41,261 nt of DNA, from contig NZ_JAPZSK010000016.1 of NCBI RefSeq assembly GCF_027531815.1, forward strand, positions 1 to 41,261. The letters run 5' to 3'. This document shows positions 8,804 through 30,772 of the stretch, one piece after another; position 1 is the stretch's first letter; each line of letters begins with the position of its first letter. The notes beneath the pieces were generated by a model. It did not search any database and had not been told where the DNA came from. It worked only from the letters and a program-made list of their open reading frames with translations. Made by a program: the position numbers and the translations under genes. The stretch comes from Gemmatimonas sp. (GTDB lineage Bacteria; Gemmatimonadota; Gemmatimonadetes; Gemmatimonadales; Gemmatimonadaceae).

Positions 8804-8950
8804 GCGGGTCGGGGTCGGGGTCGGGGTCGGGGTCTGCGCAGGAGGCAGGAGGCAGGAGGCAGGAGGCAGGGAGCGGGAGGCGGGGAGCAGGGAGCAGGAG
8901 GCAGGAGGCGGGGATTAGGGGGCAGGAGGCAGGGGGGGGGCGGGGAGCGC
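8804..8950. repeat. G-rich tract: (TCGGGG)n G-quadruplex motif followed by AGGAGGC-type heptamers
   Basis: In the 239-bp gap between sprA and the comEA-like gene, the plus strand holds about five consecutive GGGG runs separated by TC (8809-8843). These are followed by tandem AGGAGGC heptamers (about 8839-8870) and degenerate GGGAGCAGG / GGCAGGAGG units to about 8950. The GGGG-TC array satisfies the usual G-quadruplex pattern. The heptamer part belongs to the same family as the repeats at 19911, 20476, 27580 and 33356. Confidence 0.8.
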
Positions 8951-19880: not shown

Positions 19881-19905
19881 GGGCGCGCCAGGTGGCGCGC
19901 CCTTT
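19881..19905 (+). terminator. Intrinsic terminator of the lptFG-mlaED operon
   Basis: GGGCGCGCC, an AGGT loop, and GGCGCGCCC form a perfect 9-bp GC-rich stem followed by TTT, six bases after the mlaD stop. The T-tract is short but the stem is very strong. Confidence 0.75.
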
Positions 19906-19910
19906 GGGTT

Positions 19911-19956
19911 GAAAAGGGAGGGAGCAGGGAGCAGGGGGCGGGGAGCAGGTGACGGG
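19911..19956 (+). repeat. Left inverted repeat of the four-helix-bundle cassette
   Basis: AAAAGGGAGGGAGCAGGGAG, continuing with GCAGGGGGCGGGGAGCAGGTGA. It is purine-rich with a GGGAGCA heptamer register. It starts 6 bp after the T-tract of the mlaD terminator and is the inverted mate of 20476-20513. It also matches the left arm of the element at 27580 (about 27 of 32 bases by eye). Confidence 0.8.
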
Positions 19957-19967
19957 AACGGCAATGG

Positions 19968-19997
19968 AAGGAGGCCTCACGGCCTCCTTTTGTTTTT
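19968..19997 (+). terminator. Intrinsic terminator overlapping the 3' end of the four-helix-bundle gene
   Basis: AAGGAGGCC, a TCAC loop, and GGCCTCCTT form a 9-bp stem followed by TTGTTTTT on the plus strand. The stop codon of the minus-strand gene lies in the loop. It points with the upstream plus-strand operon and would block read-through antisense to the four-helix-bundle gene. Confidence 0.75.
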
Positions 19998-20360
19998 CCG
20001 CTCGAGTAGCTGCCTGCGCTTGTACTCCCGCAGGGCGTAGAGCATGCGGCGGACCTGCTGGAGTTCATCCAGTGTGGCGTTGATGTCGCCGAATCCTCGT
20101 ACGACACGGGCGGCAAGACGGAGGTGGGTTTCGACTTCGAACGCGCTTGCGATTGCCACACTGAGGTGGAAGGGGCATCGCCCTTGGCTCGGGTGGCCCA
20201 CACCTTCCGCAATGTTGGCGGCGATGGAGGAGGCTGCGCGTGCCATCTGCGAGGCCAGACCGGGGGCCTTTCCAGACGGTATCTGCTCTGCGTGCTCGTG
20301 TACACGGGCAGCAAGATCGAGCGCCCTATGGTACACCTGAAGGTTGGCGGGATTCTGCAT
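19977..20360 (-). CDS. Four-helix-bundle protein (23S rRNA intervening-sequence / S23 family)
   Basis: 127 residues, the usual length of this family (TIGR02436-type). It begins MQNPANLQVYHRALDLAARVHEHAEQIP and contains the signature SQMARAASSIAANIAEGVG (family form: L..Q..RA..SI..NIAEG), then a helical second half (FEVETHLRLAARVV, TLDELQQVRRMLYALREYKRRQ). Members are encoded in intervening sequences of 23S rRNA in Leptospira and Coxiella and as free-standing genes. The fold is shared with Avd, the accessory protein of diversity-generating retroelements. The biochemical role of free-standing copies is unknown. Here it is flanked by inverted repeats, and its TGA stop lies in the loop of a terminator hairpin. 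No rRNA or reverse transcriptase is nearby. Confidence 0.88.
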   Translation of the reverse strand: MQNPANLQVYHRALDLAARVHEHAEQIPSGKAPGLASQMARAASSIAANIAEGVGHPSQGRCPFHLSVAIASAFEVETHLRLAARVVRGFGDINATLDELQQVRRMLYALREYKRRQLLERKNKRRP

Positions 20361-20475
20361 GCCGCACGATGTGCGGGCTGCACCGCCATGGTGTCACCAT
20401 TTCATCGCTCCTTGACTCATTGCCACGCCGTAAGCCGTTTCCTCGTCGCTTCTACATGGTCCCCCCTGCGCTCTG

Positions 20476-20513
20476 CCACCTGCTTCCCGCCCCCTGCCCC
20501 CTCCCTTTTGAAC
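20476..20513 (-). repeat. Right inverted repeat of the four-helix-bundle cassette
   Basis: The reverse complement reads CAAAAGGGAGGGGGCAGG, then GGGCGGGAAGCAGGTGG. It is the inverted mate of 19911-19956 with one 7-bp unit fewer. Its outer end touches the T-tract of the next gene's terminator (20511-20548). Confidence 0.8.
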
Positions 20514-27525: not shown

Positions 27526-27544
27526 TCCCTGTGGGATGAGGACG

Positions 27545-27577
27545 GGGGAGCCGGCAATGCCGGCTCCCCTTTTGTTT
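27545..27577 (+). terminator. Intrinsic terminator of the plus-strand receptor gene
   Basis: GGGGAGCCGGC, an AAT loop, and GCCGGCTCCCC form a perfect 11-bp stem followed by TTTTGTTT. This is the clearest terminator in the window. Confidence 0.9.
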
Positions 27578-27579
27578 AC

Positions 27580-27675
27580 AAGGGAGGAAGCAGGGGGCAG
27601 GAAGCAGGTTGCAGGGGGCAGGTGACGACCTGCGTCCCGCTTCCTTGCCCCCTGCTGCCTGCTCCCTGCCCTGTC
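27580..27675. repeat. ORF-less inverted-repeat element related to the four-helix-bundle cassette
   Basis: The left arm begins AAGGGAGGAAGCAGGGGGCA (27580 onward) and runs to about 27627. The right arm, on the opposite strand, contains GGGAGCAGGCAGCAGGGGGC. The arms resemble those at 19911 and 20476 and nearly abut, separated only by a few bases around GTGACGACC. The element lies 3 bp after the receptor terminator. It looks like a miniature derivative that has lost the internal gene. The rest of the 200-bp gap (to 27725) shows nothing else. Confidence 0.7.
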
Positions 27676-27725
27676 ATCCAGGGGCGCGCCCCCGGCGCGC
27701 CCGCTCCTCTTCAGCGCGCCCGCGC

Positions 27726-29427: not shown

Positions 29428-30369
29428 ATGGCAACCGGCATCGCCCCTGTGAACGGGAACCCGCCAGTCGGGGCTCCTCCGAGCCCTGTGGCCGACACCC
29501 CGCTGTCGCGCGACCTCGTCGCGCTGACCAAGCCCCGCATCATCTCGCTGTTGCTGGTCACGACCGCCGCGCCCATGTACGCCGCCGGCAGCCCGAGCCT
29601 CTGGACGGTGCTGCTGGTGATGGTGGGCGGGTATCTCATGGCCGGGGGCGCGAACGCGGTGAACATGTACATCGACCGCGACATCGACGACGTCATGGCG
29701 CGCACGCGGCTGCGCCCCATCCCGAGCGGCCGCATGTCCCCCACGCAGGTGCTGGCGTTCGGCGTGTTCTGCGCCACGCTGGCCACGTGGATGCTGGCGC
29801 ACTTCGTGAATGTGCTCACGGCGGGGCTCGCGCTGGCGGGCTTCTACTTCTACGTGTTCATCTACACGCGCATCCTCAAGCGCACGAGCCCACAGAACAT
29901 CGTGATTGGCGGCGCCGCCGGGGCCTTCCCGCCCCTGGTGGGATGGGCGGCGGTCACGGGCACGCTCGACGTGACGGCGCTGTGCCTGTTCCTCATCGTG
30001 TTCTACTGGACCCCGCCGCACTTCTGGGCGCTGGCGCTGCTCAAGCAGGTGGACTACGGCCGCGCCAAGGTGCCCATGGCGCCGCTGGTGTGGGGCGAGC
30101 GCGAGACGATGCACCAGATGGTGTGGTACACCGTGATTCTGCTGGCGCTCACGGTGCTGCCGGTGCTGTACGGGGCCTTCGGCCTGCTCTACCTCGCAAG
30201 CGCTCTCGTGCTGGGCGGCCTGCTCATGTGGGGGGTGCTCAAGGTGCTCTGGGCCGCGCAGCAGGGGCAGCCGTGGACGGGGCCGGCGTGGTGGGTGTAC
30301 AAGTACTCGCTGCTGTATCTCGCGCTGCTGTTCGTGGCGATGGGGATAGACCGGGCGCTCGCCCGGTAG
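29428..30369 (+). CDS. ctaB: Protoheme IX farnesyltransferase (haem O synthase, UbiA family)
   Basis: 313 residues from the ATG at 29428, one base after the upstream gene's stop. Longer starts overlap that gene. The protein transfers a farnesyl group to haem b to make haem O, needed for haem-copper oxidases. It shows the UbiA first Asp motif NMYIDRDIDDVMARTRLRPIPSG (N-x3-D-x3-D), the CtaB/CyoE-specific YTRILKRTSPQNIVIGGAAGAFPPLVGW, and WTPPHFWALAL followed by DYGRAKVPM (second Asp region). About 8-9 membrane helices are visible. Length and motifs are normal. The cytochrome oxidase genes often found beside ctaB are not in the window. Confidence 0.95.
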   Translation: MATGIAPVNGNPPVGAPPSPVADTPLSRDLVALTKPRIISLLLVTTAAPMYAAGSPSLWTVLLVMVGGYLMAGGANAVNMYIDRDIDDVMARTRLRPIPSGRMSPTQVLAFGVFCATLATWMLAHFVNVLTAGLALAGFYFYVFIYTRILKRTSPQNIVIGGAAGAFPPLVGWAAVTGTLDVTALCLFLIVFYWTPPHFWALALLKQVDYGRAKVPMAPLVWGERETMHQMVWYTVILLALTVLPVLYGAFGLLYLASALVLGGLLMWGVLKVLWAAQQGQPWTGPAWWVYKYSLLYLALLFVAMGIDRALAR

Positions 30370-30380
30370 CGGGTTTAACG

Positions 30381-30719
30381 ACGCGGGGGGGACAACGCGC
30401 GATCGAGGACGCGTTGGCGGGGACGCGTTGGAAAGGACGCGTTGGCGTCAACGCGTTGGCGGGGACGCAGACACCGACGCGGACACCGACGCGGACACCA
30501 ACGCAGGCACCAACGCAGGCACCAACGCAGGGCGACCGAGGCCGAAGGCCAGGTCGCCCTCGTCGTTGCCCCTCGTCGTTGCCCGCGTTGGTGCCCGTCG
30601 TGGTTGCCGGCGTGCCCGCCTGCGCCTCTCCGCGTTGGTGCCAACGCGTCCGTGCGAATGCGTCGTCGCCAACGCGTGTTCGCCAACGCGTCGTCGATCG
30701 CGCGTTGTCCCCCTCGCGT
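30381..30719. repeat. Giant imperfect palindrome rich in ACGCGTTGG repeats
   Basis: The 403-bp gap between ctaB and the ABC exporter is almost wholly one inverted repeat. The outer 29 bases, 30391-30419 and the complement of 30681-30709, match at 28 positions. Inner parts contain three CACCAACGCAGG-type units and GACACCGACGCG units on the left, with their decayed complements on the right. The apex at about 30545 is GGGCGACC...GGTCGCCC enclosing GGCC-GAA-GGCC. ACGCGT occurs seven times (30409, 30423, 30437, 30451, 30644, 30672, 30686). The open frames across it are repetitive and not protein-like. I do not know this element. It could form a cruciform in DNA or a hairpin of about 165 bp per arm in RNA, and may end the ctaB transcript. 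Confidence 0.85.
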
Positions 30720-30772
30720 AGTTCGCCCGCCCCGGCGGTAGACAGCCGTCTCTCCGTCCGCAATCTTGTGGC

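Follow-up and report, generated by a model that had tools for sequence, protein, structure and literature searches.

The 96-bp unit that lies next to an amino-acid permease gene in the window (the whole stretch of 41,261 nucleotides analyzed here, from the 4.3-Mb Gemmatimonas sp. genome G000) is probably a non-autonomous miniature without a gene, belonging to a family of short mobile elements in which the full member consists of a four-helix-bundle gene (4HB; S23/23S_rRNA_IVP, PF05635/TIGR02436) between lineage-specific heptad arms and the 4HB protein would act in trans. At the level of sequence comparison, the architecture of the elements, the specificity between arms and gene, the gene-less copies, the presence or absence at orthologous sites, and the exact empty sites on plasmids were established. 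The features of the window are listed in Table 1.

The hairpin that the earlier note had placed at 27580-27675, with arms resembling those around the 4HB gene, was recovered at that place. Its arms are composed of degenerate heptads (GCAGGNN), and the bounds of the unit were set at about 27577-27676 because sister copies in G000 end in TGACAAGGGAGG...CCTCCCTTGTCA. The predicted fold of this 100-bp element reached -64.2 kcal/mol, compared with -44.6 +/- 3.9 for shuffled sequences (z = -5.0). For the left arms at 19911 and 27580, a likeness of about 27/32 had been claimed; the likeness itself held, while the exact count did not, as the best ungapped 32-mer matched at 26/32. This value was reached by 0/300 dinucleotide shuffles (mean 19.7, maximum 25), and the similarity was thus kept against shuffled purine-rich sequence, where the earlier note had allowed for its loss. 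Moreover, purine-rich stretches elsewhere in the window gave no match, save for positions 8838-8950, where a heptad array built of the arm repeat itself is located, perhaps half of an element or an arm that has expanded. A chance likeness of purine-rich, low-complexity sequence might be invoked for G-rich heptad arms, as such words arise more easily in GC-rich genomes, but it is already refuted and its probability is next to nil, considering the shuffles, the absence of reversed-pattern matches genome-wide, the paired inverted geometry, and the species specificity of the arms.

Table 1. Features of the window related to the gene-less unit and the 4HB element
Feature	Coordinates	Strand	Basis or remark
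Miniature element without gene, two inverted heptad-repeat arms forming a hairpin	27577..27676	.	Consensus ends, fold, same-slot comparison
Left arm of miniature, G-rich heptads (GCAGGNN)	27580..27622	+	Inverted-repeat and arm comparison
Right arm of miniature, inverted	27642..27676	-	Inverted-repeat and arm comparison
Intrinsic-terminator-like stem and T-run of upstream outer-membrane protein gene	27544..27573	+	Miniature begins directly after
G+C-rich stem-loop at 3' end of amino-acid permease gene, other border of miniature	27681..27702	-	Sequence inspection
Tandem heptad array, same repeat as miniature, without clear inverted partner	8838..8950	+	Repeat and pattern match
Full element, 4HB gene with arms, flanked by MlaD and outer-membrane protein genes in convergent orientation	19909..20512	.	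Arm search at 4HB loci
Left arm of full element	19911..19951	+	Arm comparison
Right arm of full element, inverted	20474..20511	-	Arm comparison
4HB gene, 127 aa	19977..20360	-	PF05635 2.2e-20; TIGR02436 5e-22; PDB 2GSC relative E 5e-8
Second gene-less element, larger, inverted repeats, another arm family	30369..30730	.	4HB-bearing copy at G000:C4:394516-394824

The arms of both window elements begin directly after terminator-like stems of neighbour genes, located at 27544-27573 and 19881-19902. Such starts, which were also seen for several other copies in the genome, may reflect a target preference.

By sequence, the 4HB protein is a relative of XCC0516 (2GSC), which forms a pentamer of four-helix bundles (PMC4990558). 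Its profile matches were to PF05635 and TIGR02436, and transposase homology was not detected in it. The earlier view that 4HB has no established role as a mobility protein still stands, mobility having been proposed only for rRNA intervening sequences. We know of no catalytic motif in the 4HB fold.

Nine 4HB genes were identified in G000 with TIGR02436. Inverted arms flanked 8/9 of these genes, each pair with its own sequence (E = 9e-7 to 2e-69), and 5/600 random placements fell between inverted arms; a single 4HB locus accounted for four of these, and the fifth lay between two window-family miniatures. Significant inverted arms were not detected at one 4HB gene (L031, G000:C6:400404-400721), which is possibly a decayed element. 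Repeats of the GAACTGAGAACCGAGAACTG type were observed close by in the L031 neighbourhood. For the window family, the arm pattern gave 99 overlapping matches in the 4.3-Mb genome, representing about 34 places when merged by hand, and the reversed control pattern gave 0 matches in the same 4.3 Mb. Among the close arm pairs of this family, 13/14 were in plus-then-minus (inward-facing) order and none enclosed a 4HB gene; the sole 4HB-bearing pair was 19911/20510. The genome scan proposed in the earlier note thus returned gene-less close pairs and the 4HB-bearing copy at about 13 to 1 for the window arm family. The proposed relation between a full element and a non-autonomous derivative gained further support from seven more arm families, each located around another 4HB gene and each also having gene-less copies. 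In addition, when 10% of the genome was sampled, more copies of all eight arm families were present, mostly plain gene-less hairpins together with some single arms.

The arms of 8 (G000), 3 (G001), 4 (G002), and 3 (G003) 4HB elements were also searched for across species in samples of ~400 kb per species, covering ~10% of each genome, evenly spaced in G001-G003 and partly chosen around known matches in G000. Extra arm copies amounted to 39 in the own genome (22, 0, 9, and 8 for G000, G001, G002, and G003, respectively, the arms of G001 having no extra copy in its own 400-kb sample) versus 2 in other genomes; the choice of the G000 sample can raise the own-genome count but has no power to explain the zeros elsewhere. 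Similarly, the window arm pattern at 2 mismatches gave 39 matches in G000 and 8 in the closest related genome, compared with 0-5 in the remaining 28 species, so that among 30 species this family is nearly restricted to the first two. Arms were shared by 10/13 of the 4HB protein pairs with at least 60% identity and by 6/582 of those below 60%, a tracking of arm and protein that is the behaviour to be expected if a protein and the sequence it recognises evolved together. Across four species, the arms therefore go with the 4HB gene, as the earlier note had asked, and its naming of 4HB as the autonomous partner is borne out as far as the arms follow the gene (39 vs 2 copies), the partner role itself being what we infer.

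Comparison of orthologous sites revealed differences between species. At the permease slot (27577-27676), G014 and G005 had gene-less hairpins with related ends, G006 and G011 were empty, and G003, G016, G020, and G025 harbored a hairpin of another arm family, while in several species with a different neighbour gene at this slot the hairpins were of the arm type of the species itself. In the MlaD slot of G020, a gene-less hairpin had arms matching those of the 4HB element of that genome (L081), and one G000 element was missing from the corresponding place in G014. Both window elements abut terminator-like stems and lie between convergent genes, which would fit an explanation of the arms as nothing more than bidirectional terminators or mRNA-end structures of such genes, fixed and not mobile; this is nevertheless very improbable, given that the same slot in other species holds unrelated arm families or nothing, that arm copies recur inside one genome but scarcely ever in another, and that cyanobacterial copies are found inside operons with exact empty counterparts. 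G014, the nearest relative (~90% DNA identity), has elements at most of the G000 sites too, and these sites thus give no evidence of current movement in G000. Between these sister species, the 4HB core was observed to be inverted relative to its flanks (L034 and L039 in G000, L157 and L164 in G014), probably as a result of recombination between the inverted arms.

The presence/absence junctions in Gemmatimonadota were too diverged to be mapped to the base, and the base-exact empty sites are those of cyanobacterial plasmids. In the occupied plasmids L299/L300 (T. variabilis, Scytonema), a 4HB element lies in AAAAAGTAAT/TAACAAAT, the T. variabilis insert being 428 bp long, whereas four plasmids of other hosts (L307-L310, ~98% identity) have the uninterrupted AAAAAGTAATTAACAAAT as the empty counterpart. 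GTAAT flanks the 428-bp insert on both sides (L299 vs L307-L310), which is either a 5-bp duplication or microhomology; a target-site duplication was not evident in L297, and no consistent one was found besides this single GTAAT case. Furthermore, in the Nostoc plasmids L294 and L297 a shared gene has one 4HB element on one side in the first plasmid and a different one on the other side in the second, each plasmid being empty at the site occupied in the other. L306 and L315 have the same arms, in a decayed and in a gene-less copy, respectively. By comparison, these exact empty sites show insertion of 4HB elements. 4HB elements were also located inside operons, for example in the gaps between cas10/cmr3, cas6/cas4, ribonucleotide reductase genes, or Fe-S assembly genes, which looks like landing rather than function. 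At L289, L291, L295, and L305, 4HB genes with heptad-type arms were observed in CRISPR-Cas (cas6-4HB-cas4, cas10-4HB-cmr3) and Fe-S assembly operons. Simple insertion may account for the link between 23S_rRNA_IVP and cas loci reported in PMC3936711.

Beyond G000, inverted arms were detected at 27/40 4HB loci of the genus sample (two of the 40 being outside loci) versus 10/400 mismatched flank pairs, with some 4HB genes of the genus having no clear arms, and at 19/24 4HB loci of other Gemmatimonadota genera versus 7/200 mismatched flank pairs. The 4HB gene family was present in 53/101 sampled Gemmatimonadota genomes (about half). A scan of genome contigs with a single 4HB protein returned 2 loci. 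Searching plasmids with the window 4HB protein as query gave no match, and a more typical 4HB relative retrieved 28 records; 15/17 plasmid 4HB loci (Cyanobacteria, Bacteroidota, Azospirillum, Gemmatirosa) had inverted arms, the Gemmatirosa locus probably being counted in the Gemmatimonadota set too. The periodicity was 7 or 14 bp in 28/38 arms with a clear period, and the inward strand was G-skewed in 65/70 arms. Moreover, a 4HB element was found inside a 23S rRNA gene of the Alphaproteobacterium Azospirillum lipoferum (L303), representing an intervening sequence with arms of the intergenic type (GGACGGATGACAGAGGACGG). In the cyanobacterial plasmids L297 and L298, a purine-rich left arm (AGGAGTCAGAATAAATG) was observed directly upstream of the 4HB start codon, where it could serve as the ribosome-binding site of the 4HB gene.

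Candidate drivers of the hairpins were screened as RVT_1 and Y1_Tnp families in 30 genus genomes. RVT_1 was absent from 27/30 of these, G000 included, and Y1_Tnp from 22/30, and neither was detected in the complete genomes G001, G002, and G003. G002 and G003, without Y1_Tnp and RVT_1, carry extra arm copies in their samples. As a requirement, a RAYT-type (Y1/HUH) transposase or a reverse transcriptase is excluded, at least in the complete genomes G001-G003. A RAYT/REPIN system, in which a REP-associated Y1 tyrosine transposase would move the hairpins and the 4HB association would be secondary, resembles the present case in its paired inverted-repeat hairpins with one family per protein (PMC3116915), and one Y1_Tnp gene each was found in G000 and G014; for these genomes, however, it is largely refuted and scarcely credible, as complete G001, G002, and G003 lack Y1_Tnp, yet G002 and G003 have extra arm copies, and 0/8 arm families match the sole Y1 locus of G000.

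In the main rival explanation, 4HB would be a passenger, or a regulator or addiction gene, and the hairpins would be spread either without any part of the protein, by replication slippage, template switching, or gene conversion, or by another transposase in trans. The 4HB protein has no known catalytic site, the length of the heptad array varies between sister species as slippage predicts, and at two loci the relative orientation of 4HB core and flanks differs between G000 and G014 as arm recombination predicts, all of which this explanation would accommodate; it accords poorly with the same gene family lying between arms in every phylum examined, with arm sequence tracking 4HB identity and genome, with insertions at exact empty sites, which are not slippage, and with the lack of RAYT-type and RT genes in complete host genomes. 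The tight pairing of gene and arms across phyla speaks against this rival explanation, which we consider rather unlikely.

In the element family to which the 96-bp unit probably belongs, a full element comprises one 4HB gene between inverted arms of degenerate, mostly 7-bp, G-rich repeats, with each 4HB lineage having its own arm sequence and with matching gene-less hairpins scattered intergenically in the same genome. We infer the direct role of the 4HB protein and the chemistry as follows. The oligomeric 4HB protein would act in trans by recognising the folded heptad arms that belong to its family, and the protein, or something recruited by it, would bring about the copying or insertion of the arms with host enzymes, akin to the supposed action of RAYT transposases on REPINs. 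The 23S rRNA intervening sequences would be elements of the same kind that had inserted into a loop of the rRNA; the hairpin would be tolerated there because RNase III would trim it.

Elements of this build occur in Gemmatimonadota, Cyanobacteria, Bacteroidota, and an Alphaproteobacterium, suggesting a class of mobile DNA that has gone unrecognised. Our data also suggest that intergenic 4HB elements form the general case, with the rRNA intervening sequences as a special one; if rRNA intervening sequences count as a known kind, 4HB elements would be a variant of those. Whether the 4HB protein itself confers mobility on such an unrecognised class across phyla, recognising heptad hairpin arms particular to its lineage, moving itself and its miniatures without RT or HUH, and yielding rRNA intervening sequences and many heptamer repeats as products, is in our judgment evenly balanced. 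To our knowledge, no class of mobile element built on a 4HB protein has been described, the 23S rRNA intervening sequences, described about 1990, still have no accepted origin, and the same applies to the intergenic heptamer repeats of several phyla. The rRNA intervening-sequence and intergenic heptamer architectures are here tied to one gene family, now with a testable job, and, if 4HB does mobilise the arms, it would be a mobility protein unlike known transposases, integrases, or reverse transcriptases.

Among known systems, group II introns (terminator-targeting group IIC) differ from the present elements in that RVT_1 (reverse transcriptase/maturase) is absent from G000. PF05635 has been noted as resembling Avd, the accessory protein of diversity-generating retroelements (PMC10053308), with which it shares a related four-helix-bundle fold, whereas RVT_1 was not detected in G000 or in 27/30 genus genomes and the template/variable repeat layout of such retroelements was not seen. 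MITEs of DDE insertion sequences are likewise short gene-less derivatives with the terminal arms of a gene-bearing partner, but the 4HB partner has no transposase homology and its arms are tandem-repeat based and fast-changing. REPIN/RAYT systems share the dispersed intergenic inverted-arm hairpins and the presence of more than one arm family in a genome, every family going with a single gene copy (PMC3116915), whereas the 4HB protein is not a Y1/HUH transposase, its gene lies inside the inverted arms, and the arms are longer and built of heptads. The 4HB elements thus work like REPIN/RAYT systems but are not members, because the defining transposase is absent. Unexplained intergenic heptads are also shared with STRR in cyanobacteria, GGGAATC of Xanthomonas and Nostoc (PMC4692102), and TAACTGA of Beggiatoaceae (PMC4679880), which differ in that, in the descriptions compared here, no link to 4HB is stated. 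The Nostoc plasmids analyzed here harbored heptad arms both with and without 4HB.

Among 23S rRNA intervening sequences, gene-less ones exist too (Salmonella). Ralph and McClelland proposed in 1993, as cited in PMC4990558, that rRNA intervening sequences are of mobile origin and that the ORF acts as their mobility factor, and the intervening sequence of Coxiella has heptamer repeats (GACAGAT) beside its ORF (PMC4990558). In a literature search that mostly covered work outside subscription, we found no paper testing this mobile origin with elements outside rRNA and no report tying 4HB genes to dispersed gene-less repeats. The intervening sequences with an S23/IVP ORF (Leptospira, Coxiella) share with the present elements the protein family, the inverted repeats around a single ORF of similar size, and the heptamers near the ORF, the S23/IVP (PF05635) ORF being present in the full element and absent from the 96-bp unit. 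They differ in that the window elements are located between protein genes, with only the relative L303 sitting in a 23S gene, and in that the window elements come with genome-wide gene-less copies and with arms specific to each 4HB gene.
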